A DNA stretch of 44,121 nucleotides. Origin: a virus. Positions 11,814 through 44,121 of this stretch are shown piece by piece. The notes under the pieces were generated by a model. That model made no database searches and was not told where the DNA came from. It saw only the letters and a program-made list of their open reading frames with translations. The DNA lies in IMG/VR virus record IMGVR_UViG_3300034012_002031, positions 1-44,121 of that record. One strand, 5' to 3'. The position numbers were made by a program, and so were the translations under genes. How positions within the stretch are numbered: position 1 is the first letter of the stretch; every line of letters begins with the position of its first letter.

Positions 11814-13760
11814 TCAACCAAAAAGTCCCATTTTCTTCGCCCCCGCGGCCGTCGCGAGCGCGCCCAAGCCGACGCCTACGGCTTGCTGGAACGGGCTGGC
11901 AGTCGGCTGGCTGGCCACCTGCGTCGACATCTGGCTCGACGGGGCACCCTTGTAGATGTCCGACAGGAAGCCTGCCTGCTGGTACGGGGCGTAAACCTTC
12001 TGCAACTGGTTGGCGCGCGCGGCGTCTGCCTTCTGCTGATCCAAGGCCTGCTGCGCCTGGCCGACGTTGTACAGGAAGTTGATGTCGCCCTGTTGCAGCG
12101 CCTGCGCGGTCTGACCCAGCGCGCCTTGTTGCACGCCGAGTTGACCGAGTTGACCGGCCATCTGACCAAGGCCCTGGGCCTGAGCCTGGCCAATGCCAAA
12201 CTGCTGCCCGGCCAACTGCCCGATGCCCTGGCCAAGGCCTTGGAACTGCTGGCCCTGCTGGCCGTAGATGTTGGCGATCTGGCCGCCCATCTGGCCGTAC
12301 TGGCCCGCCTGCTGCGTCAGGAGGTTGGCGATGTTCTGGTTGATCGCCGCCTCTTGCCCGGCCAGCGCGCCTTGCTGCGAGGCCATGTTGCCATACTGCT
12401 GCCCTGCTTGGAGGAACTGGCCCGCGGCCCCCTGCCCAAGCTGCGCCTGCTGCACGCCCAACTGGCCCAAGCCCTGCCCGGCGGCAATCTGGTTCTGTGC
12501 CAGGTTGCCGTACAGCCCTGCCGCGCCCTGATTGAGGCCCGCTTGCTGCGCTGCAGCAGAAACCTGCCCCTGGCCCGCGGCCATGAGTTGCTGGGCGGCA
12601 TTCTGGCCAAGACCCGCCTGCTGGGCGGCAACCTGTGCTTGCTGCGTGCCAAGCTGGCCAATGCCCTGCCCGGCCTGCAGTTGGCGCTGTTGCTGCTGCT
12701 CAAACGTGGCCTGCGCCTGTGCCTGCGCCTGGGAGTACCCCTGGGACAGGAGGTTGGCAATTGTGCTGGCCTTCTGGTCCATCAGATTGCGCTCCATCTC
12801 GGCGCGCTGTACACCCTCCCGCTCGCCGCCAAACGCACCCGCACGGACAGCCTGCGCGGCCAGCCCCTGCTGGGCGATCGCGCCCTGGCGGTTGATCTGG
12901 CGCATGGTCTCGTCGATCACCTGCTGCCGGTACGGGTCCATGAAGGACTGCGCAGACGACGGATCGTACGCCTGCTGCGCCCCGCCGAGCGTGCCGATGC
13001 CCTGGCTCAGCGCCTGCTCGGCCTGGCCAAAACCCGGCTGGTTGGTGGCCATTGCAGAGGCCAGAGCCCCGCCGTACATGGCGTTGACTCCCTGCTCCAT
13101 TCCGGGGGCCTGCGCCGATCGCGCAGCCATCTGCTGGGCCGTGCTCAGGCCCCCAAGGCCCTGACCAATGGCCTCCGTGGCCGGCGCAAGGTTGGCCTGG
13201 CTGGACTGGGCCGCCATGTTCTGGGCCGTGGTCAGCGATCCGAGGCCCCTGCTGATGTCCTGGTAGGCCGGGTTGAACCGGGCGGACGTGTCGGAGGCCA
13301 AGGCCCGCTGGCCTGCCGTGCCCAGGTAGCCAAGCCCCTGGGAGATTGGGGCAAGGCCCGCTGCCATGTTGGCAGTGGCGCCCCCAGCTTGCTGCATGGC
13401 CCGCTGTGCGTCGGTGAACTGCGCCCGGGTGTCGGCGCCGCGCAGGATGTCAGCGGCCTCGGCCGTGGTGCCATAGGCCCCGCCCAGTGCCTGGTTGGCC
13501 GCCGTCATATAGGGGGTGAAGGCCCCCACCCCCAGGGCCGTTGCCGCGTTAATCGCGGTTGTCTGAGGGCCAGTAAACCCCTCTACTTGATAGGCGGGGA
13601 GCTGCTCGCCCAGCGGAGTACGCTGACCGATGACGTTGCCCTGGTCATCGATGATGTTGTTGTAGGCGAGTGCTTGGGCCTGCTGAAGGAGCTTGACCTT
13701 GTACGCCTCGATCTTCGGGTCTTCCCGGATAATTTGTTGGGTGACGGTCTGGTCTGACAT
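11814..13760 (-). CDS. Gln/Ala/Gly-rich repeat virion protein (648 aa), probable ejection protein
   Basis: The N-terminus (QTVTQQIIREDPKIEAYKVKLLQQAQAL) and the following GFTGPQTTAINAATALGVGAFTPYM segment are familiar from large phage internal proteins. From residue about 90 to 600 the sequence is a series of short imperfect helical repeats in Q, A, G and L (GQGLGQLGVQQAQLG, AAQQAGLNQGAAG), which suggests a long helical rod or coiled bundle. A more basic insert around 270-330 (SFMDPYRQQVIDETMRQINRQ) is non-repetitive. The last 45 residues include a helical, Gly/Ala-rich end, GVGLGALATAAGAKKMG. No enzyme motif is visible. The long antisense reading frames across this gene result from its biased codons. 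AAGG lies 8 nt before the ATG. Confidence 0.7.
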   Translation of the reverse strand: MSDQTVTQQIIREDPKIEAYKVKLLQQAQALAYNNIIDDQGNVIGQRTPLGEQLPAYQVEGFTGPQTTAINAATALGVGAFTPYMTAANQALGGAYGTTAEAADILRGADTRAQFTDAQRAMQQAGGATANMAAGLAPISQGLGYLGTAGQRALASDTSARFNPAYQDISRGLGSLTTAQNMAAQSSQANLAPATEAIGQGLGGLSTAQQMAARSAQAPGMEQGVNAMYGGALASAMATNQPGFGQAEQALSQGIGTLGGAQQAYDPSSAQSFMDPYRQQVIDETMRQINRQGAIAQQGLAAQAVRAGAFGGEREGVQRAEMERNLMDQKASTIANLLSQGYSQAQAQAQATFEQQQQRQLQAGQGIGQLGTQQAQVAAQQAGLGQNAAQQLMAAGQGQVSAAAQQAGLNQGAAGLYGNLAQNQIAAGQGLGQLGVQQAQLGQGAAGQFLQAGQQYGNMASQQGALAGQEAAINQNIANLLTQQAGQYGQMGGQIANIYGQQGQQFQGLGQGIGQLAGQQFGIGQAQAQGLGQMAGQLGQLGVQQGALGQTAQALQQGDINFLYNVGQAQQALDQQKADAARANQLQKVYAPYQQAGFLSDIYKGAPSSQMSTQVASQPTASPFQQAVGVGLGALATAAGAKKMGLFG

Positions 13761-13763
13761 GGG

Positions 13764-16058
13764 TTACGCCTTTACAGCTCCGCCTTCGAGCTTTTTCATG
13801 AGTTTGTACATGCGCGCAGCTCCCTTGCGTCGGCTGCCGCCCCCAGCGTTGCGCACCGCCCTGGCGGTGAAGACAAACTCGCCGTCCGACAGCATGGCCG
13901 GAATGGAGTCCGAAGTGCCGGTGCCCGGGCCGTTGATCGGGCCCGTCTTGCGCGGAAACTCCGTCGGCGTCGGCTGGCCGCCCTTTGCGAGCCTCTGCGG
14001 CTGACCGTACAACATGGGCACTCCGTACAGGCCCGCCATGTTGTAGGGCTGCGGTATCCCCGCGGGGCTACGGCTGAAACCTCCGGGGGCCGAGATTCCT
14101 GGGGCGCCCATTGGCGCCGGGGCATACCCAGAAGTTGGGATATCCACCATGGGCGGGCGCACCATAGGCGGCCTATAGCCAGAGTCCAGGCCCCCAGTGA
14201 ACATACTGGGGTTATCCCTCATGTAGTCGATGCCGGTGTAGTCCCGATTGAAGGCTGGATTCGGGTCAGCAGGCGACGACTTCGTGCCCCCAAAAGCGGC
14301 CACGGTGCCGTAAGTCAGCGCAGCCGCCGGGCCATACTGGCGCAGGAGACTGACGTCGCTGGGCAGGCCCGGGCGGCTCGGCGAGATGTTCTCGCTGTAG
14401 AAGTCCTTGGCGTCTTGGGCCATGCGATCAAAAAAGCCCGGAGCATTTGTCGGAACAGGTGCCGATGCACTTGGAGCCGGTGCTCCCGGGGTCGCAGCGC
14501 TCGGAGCCGCTGCACTTGGCGCCGTTGCCCCCGGGGCCGCAGGCGCGGTACCCGCTGGCGCAACGCCAGGTCCAGCGGTAGGATTAAATTCCAGCGGCGT
14601 CTGGGTGAACGTGCTCATTGGACTGGAGGTTGGCATCGAATAAGACCTGGCACCGCCGCCCATGTCGTAACTGTACTGGCCTGTGATCCTGCCAGGGTAC
14701 GTCTCCTGCAGGCGTGCGAGGCGACCAATATCGCCTTGTTGCGCTGCCTGCTGCGCCATGACTTGAGGGTAGTCAGCTATCCCGCCAGGGACATCAGGTA
14801 TGAACCTGGCCGCCTGAGCAGTGCCGCCATAGTTCAGCGACTCCACCGGAGACATGAGGTCTGCAGCGGTCCCGATAGGACCTGGAGCACCTGGTTGAGC
14901 GGCGTTTTGCGCCGCGATCTCGCCGCTCCTGAAGCCCTCTTGAGCTCTTTGGCGTATGTCTTCCGCGGTCACGCGACCTTCGTCCAACAGGCCAGTGTTG
15001 TTTCGCACGCCGGCCATAGCTGCTGCGGAAGCGCCGGACATCAGGCCCATGCGCAAGGCATCCTTTGTGCTCATGCCGCCAAGTTTGCCCACGCCAGCGC
15101 CAATGACGCCGGTAGCCAGCCCGGTATTCAAGGCAGAACCCGCAACGCCCGGCAGGTAATTGCCGACTGCCGCCATGGGGTTGGTGCCCATGACCGTCCC
15201 GCCACCACCGATGTAGCCCATGGCGCCGGAGATCAGAGCGTCCTTCATTGAGCCGCCGCCAAGGAGTGTGGCCCCCGCGCTGCCCAGGGCCGCCGCTCCG
15301 GCGGTAGTACTGGCCAGGCCAATGCCTGCTGGCCCGAGGACCGTGGCCAATGCAACGGTCAGCAGGATTCGACCGACGGGGGACTTGGCGACCTTCTTGA
15401 CGACGTTGACAACCGACTTGACAACGCCCTTGATTGCCTTGGCAACCTTCTTCAAGAAGAACTCAGGCATGCCCGTGTTCGGGTTGATCGTGCCTGCACC
15501 ACCACGGCTCTTCAGAAGCTGCGCCTCCTCTGGGGTGATGTGCGCCAGCATGCTATCGCCACGGCGCCCCTGAGAGGCCAGATACGAGGCAACATCGGCC
15601 AGGCCGCCTTGGGCCATGGGCATCGCTCCCATGCCCTCCATCGGAGGCTCCTCCATCATGGGGGCTTGCGCCCCCTGGATAGAGGTCATCTTCAACTCGT
15701 TGAGCACCGTCAGGACAGCGCCGAGGAACTCGGGGTCGTACTCTTCAGGGATGTCTTCGGGGTCGACAACGTCGTCGCGGATGAGCTCCTCGCGCATCTG
15801 CTTGTAACGGTCAGGGCGTTGGGAGAGCTGCTCAAACACCTCGATGAGCTGCTCAAGCTCTGACGGGGTAAGCTCCAGCTCCTGCATGTTCTCACGCAGG
15901 GCCTGGCGGAGCATGTCCTGCTCCTCCGGCCGGGCCATCCCAAGGGCGGTTTGCGCAGCGTCGTACGCGTCAAAACTGGTCACCGCAGGCATCTCAGATG
16001 CCTGGTCGTCCCGCATGCCTGCCCCTTGGGGCAGCGCCATGATGCCTTCATTCGCCAT
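13764..16058 (-). CDS. large virion protein with amphipathic/transmembrane segment and conserved phage C-terminal domain (764 aa)
   Basis: The start is ATG 16058 (MANEGIMAL) with AAGGA upstream; the longer frame has no ribosome site. Residues about 30-125 are acidic and helical. MAQGGLADV occurs at 148-156. Residues about 198-225 form a strongly basic amphipathic helix (FFLKKVAKAIKGVVKSVVNV), followed by a hydrophobic segment at about 230-260 (ILLTVALATVLGPAGIGLAS). A helix and membrane segment of this kind suggests membrane penetration during DNA ejection. The middle is Gly/Ala-rich, then an Ala/Pro/Ser linker. The C-terminal 60 residues (IPAMLSDGEFVFTARAVRN, then ARMYKLMKKLEGG) are a widespread phage structural module. 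It is probably an internal virion protein. A candidate promoter lies upstream. Confidence 0.75.
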   Translation of the reverse strand: MANEGIMALPQGAGMRDDQASEMPAVTSFDAYDAAQTALGMARPEEQDMLRQALRENMQELELTPSELEQLIEVFEQLSQRPDRYKQMREELIRDDVVDPEDIPEEYDPEFLGAVLTVLNELKMTSIQGAQAPMMEEPPMEGMGAMPMAQGGLADVASYLASQGRRGDSMLAHITPEEAQLLKSRGGAGTINPNTGMPEFFLKKVAKAIKGVVKSVVNVVKKVAKSPVGRILLTVALATVLGPAGIGLASTTAGAAALGSAGATLLGGGSMKDALISGAMGYIGGGGTVMGTNPMAAVGNYLPGVAGSALNTGLATGVIGAGVGKLGGMSTKDALRMGLMSGASAAAMAGVRNNTGLLDEGRVTAEDIRQRAQEGFRSGEIAAQNAAQPGAPGPIGTAADLMSPVESLNYGGTAQAARFIPDVPGGIADYPQVMAQQAAQQGDIGRLARLQETYPGRITGQYSYDMGGGARSYSMPTSSPMSTFTQTPLEFNPTAGPGVAPAGTAPAAPGATAPSAAAPSAATPGAPAPSASAPVPTNAPGFFDRMAQDAKDFYSENISPSRPGLPSDVSLLRQYGPAAALTYGTVAAFGGTKSSPADPNPAFNRDYTGIDYMRDNPSMFTGGLDSGYRPPMVRPPMVDIPTSGYAPAPMGAPGISAPGGFSRSPAGIPQPYNMAGLYGVPMLYGQPQRLAKGGQPTPTEFPRKTGPINGPGTGTSDSIPAMLSDGEFVFTARAVRNAGGGSRRKGAARMYKLMKKLEGGAVKA

Positions 16059-16132
16059 AGTTGTCCTTTCCGAGTGTGGCCAGTGGCCCTGCATGGGGCC
16101 GCGCGCCTGGAAAGGACGCGAGATTTGACCCA

Positions 16133-16162
16133 ATTATCCGATATAGCTGGCCCGGTTGTCTA
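16133..16162 (-). promoter_or_regulatory. candidate sigma70-like promoter upstream of the 764-aa virion gene
   Basis: On the minus strand TAGACA (16157-16162) and GATAAT (16133-16138) are separated by 18 nt, in the 108-nt gap (16059-16166) that is otherwise without a gene. The same gap also holds a short GC hairpin without a T-run. This is a consensus match by eye only; late phage promoters often differ from host consensus. Confidence 0.3.
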
Positions 16163-37026: not shown

Positions 37027-37497
37027 TTACATGTGCAGAATGTCTTCAGGGTCGTTGATCACTCCAAGCACCTCATCGTCGTTGATGAGGCGAATTTCCC
37101 CGCCGTCGATCGGGATGCGTGCCCCCGAGTAACGTCCGAAGATGATCCAGTCACCCTGCTTGCACCAAGGTCCCGTGGGGAACTTGGACTCGTCAGAGTA
37201 GGCAAGATCGCCCATCTTCAAGACGTAGCCGCAGACAGTGGCGAGTTGCGTCTTCTTCTGGGTCTCGTCGGGCAAGACGATGCCGCTCTTGGTCTTCTCC
37301 GCGCCACGGTAAGGCAAGATGGCAATACGCCATCCAGTGGGCTTGGGGATGGTGTCAATGACGGCTTCGCTGAGCTTCTCAGGGTCAAACCCCAGCTCCG
37401 TGTAGGCATCGTCCAAGGCGGGTGCCTTGGTTGCGGCCTGTTCGGCCCATTTGCGCTCAAGTGCGGTCATTTCGACCGGTGCAGTTTCGACTTCCAT
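37027..37497 (-). CDS. GroES-like co-chaperonin
   Basis: Residues 50-156 carry the GroES fold: PTGWRIAILPYRGAEKTKSG, GIVLPDETQKKTQLATVCGY, VLKMGDLAY, GPWCKQGDWIIFGRYSGARI, and IRLINDDEVLGVI. The mobile-loop region (KTKSGIVLPD) that contacts GroEL is present. A 50-residue N-terminal helical extension precedes it. Host GroEL is presumably recruited to fold head or tail proteins, as with T4 gp31, because no GroEL is seen here. It sits between scaffold and portal genes. AGGAG lies before the ATG. Confidence 0.85.
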   Translation of the reverse strand: MEVETAPVEMTALERKWAEQAATKAPALDDAYTELGFDPEKLSEAVIDTIPKPTGWRIAILPYRGAEKTKSGIVLPDETQKKTQLATVCGYVLKMGDLAYSDESKFPTGPWCKQGDWIIFGRYSGARIPIDGGEIRLINDDEVLGVINDPEDILHM

Positions 37498-37770: not shown

Positions 37771-38043
37771 TCAGTATATCTTCACCGGACGGTTGCCGTC
37801 CTTTTTCTTCACAATCATCGACGGGCCTTGCACACCCTTGGCCTTCTTGATGACATCGCCGCCCTTGGCCATTTTGCGCGACTTGCCTGCTTTGTCGTAG
37901 GCAATTGCCGCGGCCTGTTTGACAGCGGCAGCCCTGCTCTTGGGCTTGCTGGTGCCGATCATCCCGTCTTTCTTGTAGTCGCGCACGATCTCGCCAATGT
38001 TGGAGCTGATCGTCTTCTGACTTGAACCCTTTTTAAGCGGCAT
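37771..38043 (-). CDS. small basic phage protein with MAKGG motif (90 aa)
   Basis: The start is ATG 38043 (MPLKKGSSQKTISSNIGE) with AAGGAG upstream. 'MPLKKGSSQK-IS-NI-E-V' is the recurrent start of a small basic protein encoded beside phage portals. The middle (SRAAAVKQAAAIAYDKAGKS) is helical, and MAKGGDVIKKAKG (58-70) carries the recurring GG motif. It overlaps the end of the portal gene by 11 nt. No biochemical function is known; the charge suggests DNA or scaffold binding. Confidence 0.75.
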   Translation of the reverse strand: MPLKKGSSQKTISSNIGEIVRDYKKDGMIGTSKPKSRAAAVKQAAAIAYDKAGKSRKMAKGGDVIKKAKGVQGPSMIVKKKDGNRPVKIY

Positions 38044-40366
38044 TTCGTACTCCTTGAGGTGCCTGCTGAGCCTTGCCCATCTGCAACGCCAGCCGCTGCT
38101 GGTCCAGAGCGGTCTTCTGCTGCAGTCGTTGCTGATCCAGCGCCAGCCGCTGCTGGTCGATCTGGTTGTCTGCCTGGTCGTTCTGCGCACGCTGCTGCAA
38201 TTCCTGCTGCTTGAGCGCGATCAGCGGGTCTTCGCCGCCACCGCCAGCAAGCTCGTCCTGCATCTCGCGAACTTCTTTCATGTACTGCGCAATCTTGAGC
38301 GCAACCATGCCTTCCTTCTGGATGACAGAGATCATGCGGTCTGGGTCGACGCCGTAGAGTTTGAAAAGCTCGGCCTCCACGTCCTCTTCGGCCTTCAGGC
38401 GCACGTGGTCAAGGATGTGGCGCTGCAGCATCATGGCTGACATCGGATTGGACTGCAGGATAGGCGACAGGCCCATCATCAGATGCGCTGCGATGTGCGC
38501 GTCGTGCTGCTGGCCGGCAAACGCCTTGAGCTGCATGCCGTTGAGCACGTCGCCGTTCTCTGAGGCCGGGTCGTTGGGCTTTTGCGTGTTCTGCGGCAGC
38601 AAAATGCCGTCGATGTCGCGTACGTTGAGCGCCGCGTAGACGCGATAGTAGGCCTCGTACATGTTGTGCATGTTCGGGGCGCTCTGTGCGAGCTGCAACT
38701 GCATCTGAGCAAGCTGAATGCGCTGCGCAGTGCTGAAGATGTTGGGGTCGGCCACCGGTAGCACCGACACCATGTCGTTGAAGTCGCTGCGCTTGACCTT
38801 GCGGCTCGCGCCAGGGACTTCGTAGGGGTACTCGTCGGGCAAGAAGGTGCCAAAGCCCTCAAACAGCAGCCTGAACTCCAACGTCTGCGCGTAATGCATG
38901 CGCTTGTGGATGCTGGACATGACCATGGAGCCGCGCTCCAGCAGCGCCAGGGTCGTTCCGACCTGTGCGTACTGGTTGCCGTCGCCAACTTGCATGTCCG
39001 CGGTGCTGGAGAGCCGTTTTCCGGCGTCCACGAGGAAGCCAAGCAGGCCAAAGAGCACCTGGCTGGGCTCCTTGTACGGCAGCGGCATGAGCGAGGCCGA
39101 AAGTTCCGCGCCGCCAGCGTCAATGTCGCGCCATTCGCCCGGCTGGATGGGCGTGGAGTCGTCCGCGATCCGCGCGCCCTTGGCTTTGAAGCCCGCCGGC
39201 AGGTTCGCGAGCGTGCCAGCGTCGATCAACTGGCGCAAGGCGCTCGTTGCGCCCTTAGAAAGGCCACCAACGAGATGCACAAAGCCCAATCCGTACGCGC
39301 CCGGGCCCTCCACGAGCACGTAGTGGACAAAATAGTTCTTGCGCTGCTTGTTTTTCGACTCTTCGCGCCAGTTTCGGCGCACTCCGACAACCCGCAACGT
39401 GTCTTCGGCCAGCGTGACAACGTACGGGAGCTTGATTCCGGTGGGCTCCCCGTTCTCGTCCTTGTCTTCAAAGCCTGGAATGTCCAAATCGACCATCATT
39501 TCCAGCAAAAAGACCTCGCCGATGTCATCCGTGGGCTGCACTCCGATCGCTTTGTCGACCGCTTCCTTGATTTGGCTGGGATCAGCGGGCGACGCAGCGG
39601 TGTCAACCCTGACATCGAGGTATTCGCCGGCCACAACCCGCTTGCGAAAGTCGTTGGAGTCCATCGCAATGCGGTGCGTGATCCGCGCGCACTGGCTCAT
39701 GACGCTCGAACCGCTGTACGGGATGTACACGTCGTCAGCCAGGCACAGTTTTGACACCATCCGGCCCAGTTGGTAGTCGTAGTAGACCTTCTTGAAGGTC
39801 GATCCACCGTAGCCGGTGTAGAAAAGTAGCTGATCAAACTCCGGTGTGTACTCCTCCATCACCGTTGTGATCTGGTAATTCATGAAGTCCTGCACGCGGG
39901 TGGACTGCTGGTACTTCTCCACCGTCTCTTTGCCCACGATTTGGCTGCGAACAGGGCCGCCGGCGGGCAAAAGCTCCTTGAATGCCTGCGCCTGGAACTG
40001 CACGATGGCCTCGGTGAGCATCGGATGGGCCACGCCAGAGGCCCCGCGGAAGGGTTTTGTACGCTCTTCCATGCGCAAGCCCAGCAGATCAAGGCCCTTG
40101 GCGTACATCTGCTCCCAATCGGAGCGTGAGCCCTTGTCAGCCTCGAACAAAGCGCTCACGTCAAGGGCGATTCTGCCCAGGTCGTCGGGGTCAATGACCT
40201 CTGCCAGGTTGGCATAGAAGTCAACCTCGTCGTCTTCTTGCTCGCCAATCTCAACCGTGGCGCCTCCGTCCTCGTCGATGACCACCTCGATGTCCATCCC
40301 AGGCTCTGGCAGGCCTATTACGACGTCCAGAACAGGCGCCCGGTTAAGTGCTTTGTCGATTGGCAT
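38033..40366 (-). CDS. portal protein (P22-class)
   Basis: A 777-residue protein of podovirus portal size. The acidic N-terminus is followed by KGSRSDWEQMYAKGLDLLGL and MEERTKPFRGASGVAHPMLT, a familiar portal start. Segments TPEFDQLLFYTGYGGSTFKK, DVYIPYSGSSVMSQCARITH and QVGDGNQYAQVGTTLALLER follow. The last 60 residues (DQQRLALDQQRLQQKTALDQ) form a Gln-rich helix like the P22 portal barrel. It forms the dodecameric DNA gate at the head vertex and binds terminase. AAGGAA lies before the ATG, and the terminase gene lies further upstream on the same strand. Confidence 0.88.
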   Translation of the reverse strand: MPIDKALNRAPVLDVVIGLPEPGMDIEVVIDEDGGATVEIGEQEDDEVDFYANLAEVIDPDDLGRIALDVSALFEADKGSRSDWEQMYAKGLDLLGLRMEERTKPFRGASGVAHPMLTEAIVQFQAQAFKELLPAGGPVRSQIVGKETVEKYQQSTRVQDFMNYQITTVMEEYTPEFDQLLFYTGYGGSTFKKVYYDYQLGRMVSKLCLADDVYIPYSGSSVMSQCARITHRIAMDSNDFRKRVVAGEYLDVRVDTAASPADPSQIKEAVDKAIGVQPTDDIGEVFLLEMMVDLDIPGFEDKDENGEPTGIKLPYVVTLAEDTLRVVGVRRNWREESKNKQRKNYFVHYVLVEGPGAYGLGFVHLVGGLSKGATSALRQLIDAGTLANLPAGFKAKGARIADDSTPIQPGEWRDIDAGGAELSASLMPLPYKEPSQVLFGLLGFLVDAGKRLSSTADMQVGDGNQYAQVGTTLALLERGSMVMSSIHKRMHYAQTLEFRLLFEGFGTFLPDEYPYEVPGASRKVKRSDFNDMVSVLPVADPNIFSTAQRIQLAQMQLQLAQSAPNMHNMYEAYYRVYAALNVRDIDGILLPQNTQKPNDPASENGDVLNGMQLKAFAGQQHDAHIAAHLMMGLSPILQSNPMSAMMLQRHILDHVRLKAEEDVEAELFKLYGVDPDRMISVIQKEGMVALKIAQYMKEVREMQDELAGGGGEDPLIALKQQELQQRAQNDQADNQIDQQRLALDQQRLQQKTALDQQRLALQMGKAQQAPQGVRNAA

Positions 40367-40375
40367 GTGTTTTCC

Positions 40376-43300
40376 TTATGGCCGAGCGGCGTCGAGCTGG
40401 TCACGGTAGGACTGTAGCAGCGGGGTGAGGTACGTGTCCGACTCCGCAATGCTGACAGGCTTGAGGTAGTTCTGCAAAAAGCTCAGCACTCCTTGGTCGT
40501 ATTTCTCCGGGGCCGTGTTGCCTGTGGCCCGGCCGTTGCCCTTGATTTGCGTGACCACCGGACCCGTATTTTCCATGCGCACTTCAATTGTGTTGACGGG
40601 CCTATTCCTGTTGTCACGTAGAGTATATATTTGCCACTTGCCAGTGTTGAAACCGTTGCGCTTGTCGGATGTGTACCCCACGCCGCCCAGCTCATATCCT
40701 GCAACAGAGTGACCTACGTACGCCCCCTCAGGCACGGTGGCTTCGCGCTTTTCGATGCGCTTCCAAGCAAATCCATCAAGGCCTGAGCCCTCGCCAAACT
40801 GCAGTAAAGGAGCGCTCACACCGTTTGAGTACACCGTGTCGGCTACAGGCTTGTTCGCCCTAATGCGTTCGTGTATTTTTTCAAATTCTGAGGCCCGGTC
40901 CGCAAACTTGAGGCCCCCTCGCACCGCGTCTTCAAAACGAATATTGGCAAGTTCCCTGGGGGACAGGCCTGCCAAGAAAGTGTTGATGTTCTCGGCGTTA
41001 AACAGCGGCTTGAGCTCTCGGCTCATGTAACCGACGTCGTAAATTGGCTCGCCCTTTTCGATCGCTGCCCGCACGTTTTCACCCATGAAGTTCTTGCCAA
41101 TATCTGACTCGGCCATGTTGTGTAGCTTGCGGCCTTTGCCAAACTCGTCGTTGGCCCACGTTGCTTTCTGCTCAGGCGTCATCTTCTCGTAAGCCAACAA
41201 ATCCTCATAGGCCCTGTACAGGTCTTTGGTTGAATTAGGGCCGTCTCCAATAATGCGGGTGGGGTCTTTCACGGAGCGCGTGACTGCACCCACCCTTGCG
41301 TTAATCAGCTCAGGCCTCAGGCCCTGCATCAACATCCTGTCCGCCTCTGACTCCTCCGCGGCACTGGCTATGGCCCGCCCTTCGCGACTGAGTGAGGTGT
41401 AGTCTTTCTCAGAGGCAGCAGGATTGCGGGTAATCAGGCCTCCTTGAATTCCCGTTGCCATGTCGTAACGATCCGTAAAGTCTTCCACGGCCTGCGGGTA
41501 CTTGGGGAAAAAGCGTTCTTGTCCTTGGTCGTTTACGCGCGTCTTACCTACTGAAAGCTGGTCAATCATGTACCCAGGGAAAAGCTTGTCCAAAGCCGAT
41601 CCTTTGATCTGCTTCTTGGAAATAGCCGCGGCAATAGGATCATTTGGCGTTCCAAATTGACGCGTAAAAAAGTTGCGAGCTTTTACGTCCCAGAAGTTTT
41701 TAATCAGCTCTTCCTGTTCAACGTTTTGTCCCGCCACGCTACGCGCATTGTCTCTCCCCCGCCGCAGAATCTGATCTATCTCGCTGACGTCGGTATCGTG
41801 GCCCACAGGTCCCGTGAGCATGGTGCTGCCAATAGGCCGCACGGCGTACGACGCGCCAGGCACTGCAAGCTGGCGGTTGTACTGTTGGAAGTCCTGGGCC
41901 GCGCTTTGCGCTGCTTGGCCAACCCTTTGCGCACCACGGACCCCGCTGCGCACTGCCGCCGCTGGGTTGACCACGTTGGCCATGAGCTCGCCGGCCGTGT
42001 AAAAGCCCTTGGCCGTCGGGTCCTCAGGAGGCGCCTGCCGCACGCCCGCGCGCGTCATCTGCTGCTTGATCCAGTCGCTGCCCATGACGGGCTTGTCGAC
42101 GTTGTAGCCAAAGGGGCGCAGCGCCATCGTGGCAATGTCCACCGGCGCGCCAGCGATGTCGTACGGCAGCTCCGACGCTCCCTTGGCCGCGGCCACGTAC
42201 GCCGAGCCGGTGTTGAGCGCATCGCTGATGGGCCCGCGCTTGCGGCCCTTGCCCGACTTGGGCGTGACAAAGGCCGGGCGGCTGGCCGCCTCCAGCTCCG
42301 CGTCACTGACCTCGCCTTCCTTGGGGCTGCCCTCGGCGCGCTTGACAGCGCCCTTTGAGTTGCGCCGGGCAAGGTCCAAAAGAATCTGGAACTCGGTGGC
42401 CGCTGTCGCGTCCACATGCAGCGGGCCCTTGCTGGCAGTGGTGGGCCCTGCGTAGTTTCCTACGCCATGCGCCGCGATCTCATACGGCGCAGCCCGATAG
42501 TCCTTGTTCTTCTCGACCCACTTCGAATGATACTTACGGGCCAGCTCAGTGCGCTTGTCGCCCTCACGCATGCCGCCAGGGCCCACTAGCCTCTCGTAAG
42601 CGTCGGTAAACTGATTGCCTTTGCTGAAGAGCCCCGTCTGCTCACCAGCTTGCTGCTGCATCTGCCGGTCCGCTGCATGCGCCATCTCATGCGCCAGCGT
42701 TGACGGCCCAATCGTCGCCCCGCGATTCGAGCCAACGAGGTCCTTGTTGATCTTGATAACGCCTCTACCGATGGGCAATTTGATCGTGCTGAACATCGCG
42801 TCAGCGCCCAGCAACTGCTGCGCCCTTATGTCAGGGACCGCGCCCCGCGACTGCAAGTACTCCAGCATGGCGCGGTAGTCTGCGCCCTCCTCGGCCCGAC
42901 TCCTGATGTCCTTCAAGAAGTCCTCATCAGACTTTTTTGCCTCACCGCCCTTTTCAAACCGGCGCACGCCCAGCGTCTCCGAGGTCAAGGTGGGCTGCTC
43001 CAATGTGGGCGCGCCCAGCGTCGAGCGCATCAGCCCACGCGACTCGTTCTCCGTCGCCCGCAGCTTGAGCTTGTACTGCTTGGCCAAGGCCTGCAACTGC
43101 TCCTTGGCAGACTTGCCGCCCTTGCCCTTGCTTTTCGCCTTGGGCTCCTTGATCGCAAAGTCCTGGCCCGTGGCCAGCGGCCCGGCAGCCAACTCCATCT
43201 CCTTGGGAGCCGCCGCGCCACCGCCAGAAGGCGCCAGCACCCGGCGCATGCCGGTAGCCTGGCGGGGACTGGTCCGCGGACCGAGGTCCTCCAGCATCCT

Positions 43301-43942
43301 CTGCGACTGCGTCATGTAGTCGTACGTGGCCTCGTCCTCAGTCTGCGGCTCGCTCGCGTCAATGAGCGCGCTCATCGCATCAAGGCTCACGGAGCCGCCA
43401 GCCGCAAAGGACTGGACGGTCGGGCCGTAGTCGGGCCAATATGCAAAGCCCGGGGGCAACGGCACAGGGGCCAACGGCTTCTTTTTTTGCTCGGCTTCGC
43501 GCTTAAGCCTGGCAAAGAACGCCCCTCTCTTGGTAGACGACTCAGGCTCTGCCGGAGGAGGCGTTAAGGGTGCCCCAAACGCTGCCTGGCGCTGGCCGCT
43601 AAAAGTAGACAGGTCCGGGGCCCGAGACACTGGGGCCGGCTCTACGGGCTGCTCCAACATCGGACCAAACCTACTGCGAAACGCCTCGCGAACGGATGTC
43701 GGAGCGGCCGGCTGCACAGGGCCCCCGTCGGAAAAACCCTGCACCGGTGTCTGTTGCGGCGCGCCGTAGCCGGCGTACTGGGCCAGCAGTTGCTGGTAGT
43801 AGCCCTCGGAGTCCGGCTCCTCGGGCTCTTGCATGACTTCCCCGCCCTCAGCAAACTGCGGCAGCGGCTGCTCCGCGTTCAAGTCAATAGGCTCCGACAT
43901 AGGGTCGGTGTTGAGCTGATAGGGCGAGAGTTCGTCTTGCAT
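40376..43942 (-). CDS. 1188-aa polyvalent virion protein: zinc metallopeptidase motif plus C-terminal PcfJ-like domain
   Basis: The N-terminal 240 residues are disordered, with FAEGG (30-34), FSDGG (70-74) and FAAGG (179-183); FEKGG is at 329-333. A peptidase core follows: AHEMAHAADR with HEMAH at 418-422, and a downstream Glu488 in PYEIAAHGV that could be the third zinc ligand. Residues about 570-680 contain GAPVDIATMALRPFGYNVDK and KGFYTAGELMANVVNPAAAV, a block seen in other large phage proteins. The C-terminal 110 residues carry HSVAGY (1078-1083), IYTLRD (1105-1110) and VTQIKG (1130-1135), as in PcfJ-like domains. Such multidomain 'polyvalent' proteins are known to be ejected by phages and conjugative elements. 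The gene lies between terminase and portal. Peptidase and PcfJ assignments are motif-based, not confirmed by search. Confidence 0.7.
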   Translation of the reverse strand: MQDELSPYQLNTDPMSEPIDLNAEQPLPQFAEGGEVMQEPEEPDSEGYYQQLLAQYAGYGAPQQTPVQGFSDGGPVQPAAPTSVREAFRSRFGPMLEQPVEPAPVSRAPDLSTFSGQRQAAFGAPLTPPPAEPESSTKRGAFFARLKREAEQKKKPLAPVPLPPGFAYWPDYGPTVQSFAAGGSVSLDAMSALIDASEPQTEDEATYDYMTQSQRMLEDLGPRTSPRQATGMRRVLAPSGGGAAAPKEMELAAGPLATGQDFAIKEPKAKSKGKGGKSAKEQLQALAKQYKLKLRATENESRGLMRSTLGAPTLEQPTLTSETLGVRRFEKGGEAKKSDEDFLKDIRSRAEEGADYRAMLEYLQSRGAVPDIRAQQLLGADAMFSTIKLPIGRGVIKINKDLVGSNRGATIGPSTLAHEMAHAADRQMQQQAGEQTGLFSKGNQFTDAYERLVGPGGMREGDKRTELARKYHSKWVEKNKDYRAAPYEIAAHGVGNYAGPTTASKGPLHVDATAATEFQILLDLARRNSKGAVKRAEGSPKEGEVSDAELEAASRPAFVTPKSGKGRKRGPISDALNTGSAYVAAAKGASELPYDIAGAPVDIATMALRPFGYNVDKPVMGSDWIKQQMTRAGVRQAPPEDPTAKGFYTAGELMANVVNPAAAVRSGVRGAQRVGQAAQSAAQDFQQYNRQLAVPGASYAVRPIGSTMLTGPVGHDTDVSEIDQILRRGRDNARSVAGQNVEQEELIKNFWDVKARNFFTRQFGTPNDPIAAAISKKQIKGSALDKLFPGYMIDQLSVGKTRVNDQGQERFFPKYPQAVEDFTDRYDMATGIQGGLITRNPAASEKDYTSLSREGRAIASAAEESEADRMLMQGLRPELINARVGAVTRSVKDPTRIIGDGPNSTKDLYRAYEDLLAYEKMTPEQKATWANDEFGKGRKLHNMAESDIGKNFMGENVRAAIEKGEPIYDVGYMSRELKPLFNAENINTFLAGLSPRELANIRFEDAVRGGLKFADRASEFEKIHERIRANKPVADTVYSNGVSAPLLQFGEGSGLDGFAWKRIEKREATVPEGAYVGHSVAGYELGGVGYTSDKRNGFNTGKWQIYTLRDNRNRPVNTIEVRMENTGPVVTQIKGNGRATGNTAPEKYDQGVLSFLQNYLKPVSIAESDTYLTPLLQSYRDQLDAARP

Positions 43943-43983: not shown

Positions 43984-44121
43984 TCAGTAGTACTCCGGGA
44001 CAAGCCCTTCTTGACTGGACTCCTCGTCCGGCGCGTCAGTGGCCAAGGTCACGAAGTTGCCCTGGCGAAAGCGCATCAGCGCCATGGTCGTCACGTCCAC
44101 CATGTCGTCGTTGTCGCCGTG
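43984..44121 (-). CDS. terminase large subunit, C-terminal end (partial)
   Basis: The last 45 residues of a gene that runs off the right edge: HGDNDDMVDVTTMALMRFRQ, then GNFVTLATDAPDEESSQEGL and VPEYY with TGA. The 'HDD-VD-TT-AL-RFRQG' ending is the well-known C-terminus of phage terminase large subunits (end of the nuclease domain), which cut and pump DNA into the head. It lies just upstream of the polyvalent and portal genes. Confidence 0.8.
   Translation of the reverse strand, partial: HGDNDDMVDVTTMALMRFRQGNFVTLATDAPDEESSQEGLVPEYY

Follow-up and report, generated by a model that had tools for sequence, protein, structure and literature searches.

A 1188-aa gene between terminase and portal in an aquatic phage, read from sequence comparison as one state of an exchangeable cargo slot

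We analyzed a viral record of 44,121 bases (the window) from a short-tailed, aquatic phage. Our main result, which goes beyond the initial annotation, is that comparison with related phages identifies its 1188-aa gene as one state of an exchangeable modular cargo slot with recurring joints. In our view the gene product is likely a modular polyvalent protein that virions would carry and eject into the host, with payload cassettes that can be exchanged.

The open reading frame (ORF) is a real gene with an ATG start. Several independent viral contigs carry it with 100% or 93% identity, and others carry more distant versions. The gene had first been described as lying between terminase and portal, and this placement is correct, with the 3′ end of the terminase gene (TerL) directly upstream and the portal gene directly downstream:

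40376..43942, minus strand: gene for the putative modular polyvalent protein (1188 aa) in the TerL-portal slot, based on the ORF, 16 relatives in IMG/VR and a conserved TerL-X-portal order.
43987..44121, minus strand: TerL 3′ end, the last 45 codons, cut by the window edge; its translation (HGDNDDMVD...LVPEYY) is a TerL end as in the related loci L003 and L005.
38033..40366, minus strand: portal gene, the fixed downstream neighbor of the slot (PHROG 1216, E 8.3e-39; 75% identity to the portal of phage DSL-LC04).

The window contains only this 3′ end of TerL; in relatives a complete TerL occupies the same place, and X is usually a single long ORF. The gene is thus encoded with portal and terminase genes, and it combines several domains (zincin-like and PcfJ-like) in one long polypeptide; most slot relatives carry 2-6 recognized modules per protein. 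Searched alone, the window protein had no direct match in Pfam, PHROG or PDB, and in 50,697 phage records tblastn matched neither the whole protein nor its zincin domain nor its module at residues 533-700; this module also had no match in a search of genome_contigs. Three other genes of the window, all on the minus strand, were noted: a GroES-like co-chaperonin between the portal and capsid genes (37027-37497), kept in most relatives seen; a primase with an AEP-TOTE domain (409-1941; PF22548, 2.6e-14; PHROG 21866 primase); and a 648-aa Gln/Ala/Gly-rich repetitive protein between two internal-type proteins (11814-13760), with no Pfam match.

To obtain an unbiased sample of slot contents, we searched from TerL, which gave 64 loci with both TerL and portal. 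Seven of these 64 were empty between the two genes (gaps of 4-172 bp), which shows that some relatives can do without the protein; several named relatives likewise have no long gene in the slot. A cultured relative, pelagiphage HTVC027P, has gp41 and gp42 there. The remaining loci mostly held one ORF of roughly 800-2000 aa, and some held several shorter ORFs. Among 34 slot proteins searched against Pfam, 15 carried an SLT domain, 3 DUF6973, 2 a Zeta toxin, and one each ART-PolyVal, LPD23 and PcfJ. Two of these domains, LPD23 (3.4e-10) and ART-PolyVal (1.6e-6), belong to the published polyvalent inventory, and the window protein itself has no such match. PHROG matches of slot proteins were to transglycosylases, virion structural proteins and an “internal virion protein with endolysin domain.” The proposal that the window protein is a polyvalent effector is strengthened by the SLT, ART-PolyVal, Zeta toxin and LPD23 domains that the slot holds in relatives. 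The Zeta-toxin domain in the 2039-aa slot protein of L124 (3469-9585) matched at 5.6e-12.

Cassettes were delimited by comparison with phages about 94% identical to the window phage over the surrounding DNA. Against these phages the gene consists of DNA blocks of about 92-97% identity with unrelated stretches between them, giving clean replacements at aa 70-174, 340-532 and 701-1187 (L005, L007 and L009) and recurring breakpoints at 69/175, 339/533 and 700/1188. In L005 and L007, identity to the window gene covers residues 1-69, 175-339 and everything after 533/535. In L009 it covers 1-69 and 175-700 and returns at the stop codon, the C-terminus being swapped exactly up to that codon. L065 has the same joints at lower identity. 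The resulting parts are:

43736..43942, minus strand: N-terminal segment, aa 1-69, common to L005, L007 and L009 (95-96% DNA identity to aa 69).
43421..43735, minus strand: aa 70-174, between two FxxGGxV copies, absent from L005, L007 and L009 (DNA identity ends at aa 69 and resumes at aa 175).
42926..43420, minus strand: helical module M1, aa 175-339 (...ENESRGLM...PTLE...FEKGGEA), constant in close relatives (93-97% DNA identity).
42347..42925, minus strand: predicted zincin-like cassette, aa 340-532, with HEMAH at 418-422 and Glu488, replaced in close relatives (alignment, model, fold search and replacement).
41843..42346, minus strand: constant module, aa 533-700, which starts with RAEGSPKEGE and contains MGSDWIKQQMT.
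40379..41842, minus strand: C-terminal part, aa 701-1188, swapped as a block for an unrelated part of about 550 aa in L009 and L065 (the DNA identity breaks off after aa 700 and returns with the stop codon).

In place of the zincin, the middle cassette of L005 holds LPD23 and another HExxH domain (HELQH), and that of L007 holds DUF6973 (1.6e-8); in L010 the middle slot is closed. Across 47 slot proteins, the parts combine freely. The N-terminal options are a tape-measure-like head with M1, or an SLT domain with a linker; these are followed by zero, one or two middle cassettes, then the 533-700 module, then a PcfJ-like or an unrelated C-terminus. M1 was present in 25 of the 47 and the 533-700 module in 41, the latter frequency being biased because the set was partly collected with that module. 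In the slot ORF of L009 (4099-7536), residues 600-1140 form the unrelated C-terminal part that replaces the PcfJ-like one; it has an IHELQSD motif and no significant Pfam family.

Short repeated linkers are associated with these joints. Copies of the motif [FYM]xxGG, continued by small or acidic residues, numbered 228 in slot proteins, against 16 expected by shuffling, and 93 of 223 breakpoints (42%) fell within 20 aa of an FxxGGxV or RAEGSPxxGE motif, against 9.6% of random positions; the relatives are not independent, and their kinship inflates the p value of this association, not its direction. A motif scan located five copies in the window protein:

43835..43855, minus strand: FxxGGxV linker copy 1 (aa 30).
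43715..43735, minus strand: FxxGGxV linker copy 2 (aa 70), next to the breakpoint at aa 69.
43388..43408, minus strand: FxxGGxV linker copy 3 (aa 179), next to the breakpoint at aa 175.
42938..42958, minus strand: FxxGGxV linker copy 4 (aa 329, FEKGGEA), next to the breakpoint at aa 339.
42314..42340, minus strand: RAEGSPxxGE linker (aa 535), next to the breakpoint at aa 533.

Two predicted internal virion proteins of the window also contain one linker copy each. We considered the linkers as DNA recombination sites. Their Gly codons vary freely at the synonymous third position, which speaks against this and indicates selection on the protein and not on a DNA site.

The middle cassette of the window protein had been read as a zincin-type peptidase from HEMAH and a downstream Glu488, and this reading held up. 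In an alignment of 22 sequences of the domain (analyzed as residues 338-531), His418, Glu419, His422 and Glu488 were invariant, giving HExxH and a downstream conserved Glu ligand as in zincin-like metallopeptidases; H509 and D511, which belong to a downstream HVD motif, were also invariant in the same sequences. The AlphaFold2 model was fairly good (mean pLDDT 79.7, pTM 0.81), with HExxH on a long helix behind three strands and E488 on a later helix. As to a zincin fold around HEMAH, the best PDB matches were zincins, at a weak E of 0.018 or worse: anthrax lethal factor, which contains a zincin, came first (E 0.018, probability 0.91, TM-score 0.39), and small gluzincins came next. Anthrax lethal factor was again the top match in a profile search (E 0.15). 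Pfam matches of the alignment were to M91, SprT-like and MPTase-PolyVal, all at about 0.01; MPTase-PolyVal was marginal in one aligned relative (0.013), and the window protein had no match. Together, alignment and model support residues 340-532 as a zincin-type domain, with a weak fold match, of a family absent from Pfam. In the slot ORF of L015 (4142-8509), the HEMAH domain is preceded by a second HExxH domain at residues 285-560 (HEMEH, weak M90/M91 match).

The zincin is most likely a delivered peptidase that would cut a host protein, and self-processing is the main alternative. As a processing protease, it would act at the linkers, either while the virion assembles or once the protein has been ejected, cutting its own polypeptide or neighboring virion proteins and so freeing the domains, comparable to what has been proposed for the P1 DdrB metallopeptidase. 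Autoprocessing has been proposed for zincin domains of polyvalent proteins (PMC5512222), and short repeated linkers do punctuate this protein. We nevertheless regard this as rather unlikely. Linkers are almost as many in slot proteins lacking HExxH as in those with it (means of 2.4 and 3.1, p 0.10), a result that speaks against zincin cleavage in cis as their sole purpose and weakens the idea of the linkers as such cleavage sites; where DUF6973 replaces the zincin, the linkers are retained; and the N4 virion RNA polymerase is packaged unprocessed despite its metallopeptidase domain (PMC5512222).

The C-terminus had been assigned to PcfJ-like domains from its motifs, an assignment that relatives and a fold search corroborate:

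40493..40876, minus strand: predicted PcfJ-like domain, aa 1023-1150, with HSVAGY at 1078, IYTLRD at 1105 and VTQIKG (VTQIKGNG) at 1130.

The window protein alone falls below detection by the Pfam PcfJ model (PF14284; no match above the cut-off), and the profile match came from its relatives, 6 of the 29 sequences in the C-terminal alignment matching PcfJ (best 1.9e-10). An iterated profile reached the PcfJ domain of DSL-LC04 (66 bits), where a gene annotated as PcfJ-like occupies the same TerL-portal slot. L101, L092, L035 and L036 bridge GHCVGSY...IFSLRD...IEQIKGKGN to the window's GHSVAGY...IYTLRD...VTQIKGNG, and the window protein thereby has continuous homology to PcfJ-matching members. 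The C-terminal model (pLDDT 82.9) shared its fold with several viral PcfJ-like proteins in BFVD (E 7.6e-8 to 1e-3, probability 1.00). These results support a PcfJ-like domain at the C-terminus. We also considered it as a GNAT-fold enzyme: nearly all of the top 50 Foldseek matches of the model in PDB were GNAT acetyltransferases (best E 0.016), and the model has their strand and helix order, but hhalign against five E. coli GNATs scored no better than unrelated controls; we keep this only as a hint and assign the domain no activity.

The window protein is probably packaged in the virion, as judged from its shared architecture and slot position and from what its relatives carry. A tape-measure-like internal protein of the window (13764-16133, minus strand) contains, at residues 169-248, a segment of 60-70 aa that also occurs in slot proteins from 13 relatives, among them L010, L068 and L081 (the best twelve of the 13 have E 1e-12 to 2e-8). 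Many slot relatives start with an SLT domain whose matches are virion transglycosylases or internal virion proteins. Both the segment and SLT are absent from the window protein. Phage polyvalent proteins in a portal/terminase gene context were predicted to be packaged by Iyer et al. 2017 (PMC5512222), who describe fusions of zincin, lysozyme and ART domains. We found no virion proteomics for the window phage or any slot protein, and the pelagiphage transcriptome and genome papers hold no proteomic evidence on slot genes.

The tape-measure-like segment and SLT domains of some slot proteins would also suit a mainly structural or ejection role, a pilot protein aiding DNA across the envelope whose enzymatic domains are accessory or decayed. 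This is unlikely, given that the slot can be empty, that the catalytic residues of the zincin are invariant and that enzyme or toxin domains are among the exchanged parts. An unpackaged, late intracellular protein acting on assembly or on the host in the same cell would fit a gene among DNA-packaging and portal genes, for which the packaging evidence is indirect, but is very unlikely in view of the SLT domains and tape-measure-like segment, typical of virion proteins, and of the packaging predicted for polyvalent proteins of such gene context (PMC5512222).

In the explanation that we favor, a packaged and ejected modular polyvalent protein, the slot protein would be made with the structural genes, packaged alongside internal proteins of the tape-measure or ejection type and ejected into the host. 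The constant modules M1 (175-339) and 533-700 may serve packaging or translocation. Payload domains would lie between and after them, joined by the short FxxGGxV or RAEGSPxxGE linkers, and would be swapped as whole cassettes through recombination between phages; the payloads here would be the zincin-like peptidase (340-532) and the C-terminal part ending in the PcfJ-like domain (701-1188). Related phages thus probably deliver different tools into their hosts. More tentatively, and with some doubt, we propose that a lytic phage family has here a locus dedicated to cargo, in which cassettes are exchanged within one TerL-portal frame at a protein-level FxxGGxV linker, the linker is a functional element (for docking in the capsid or for processing) that payloads share with some internal virion proteins, and each phage ejects its own counter-host enzymes.

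If the protein is packaged, phages would possess, in its constant modules and linkers, a natural means of loading their particles with different proteins. The zincin, DUF6973, PcfJ-like and unnamed domains exchanged in the slot would then be candidates for acting on bacterial hosts or their defenses as infection begins. What each payload does could be studied by comparing near-identical phages whose main difference is the cassette.

Among known systems, the PcfJ-like family PF14284 (for example WJZ48068.1, DSL-LC04, from the same slot) shares with the window protein the core H(C/S)VGxY ... IYxLRD ... QIKG, the bridging sequences and the viral fold matches, and differs in that the window protein escapes its Pfam model. 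The BFVD entry A0A6J5NDA6, from an uncultured Caudovirales phage, matches the C-terminal fold of the window protein (E 5.1e-33, 61% identity), but is named for DUF6973, the domain that replaces the zincin in L007. Internal virion (ejection) proteins with transglycosylase domains (PHROG 342, 4067) resemble several slot proteins, which begin with such an SLT domain, unlike the window protein. The phage polyvalent proteins of PMC5512222 (P1 DdrB, N4 virion RNA polymerase and DarB) are likewise large and multi-domain, with a zincin-type domain and a portal/terminase neighborhood, and two Pfam families named for them, LPD23 and ART-PolyVal, occur in slot relatives. In contrast to these polyvalent proteins, the window has a PcfJ-like domain (PcfJ has 0 mentions in PMC5512222), a zincin family with marginal MPTase-PolyVal matches, a repeated FxxGGxV/RAEGSPxxGE linker, and a fixed TerL-portal slot in which whole cassettes are exchanged between phages of about 94% identity.
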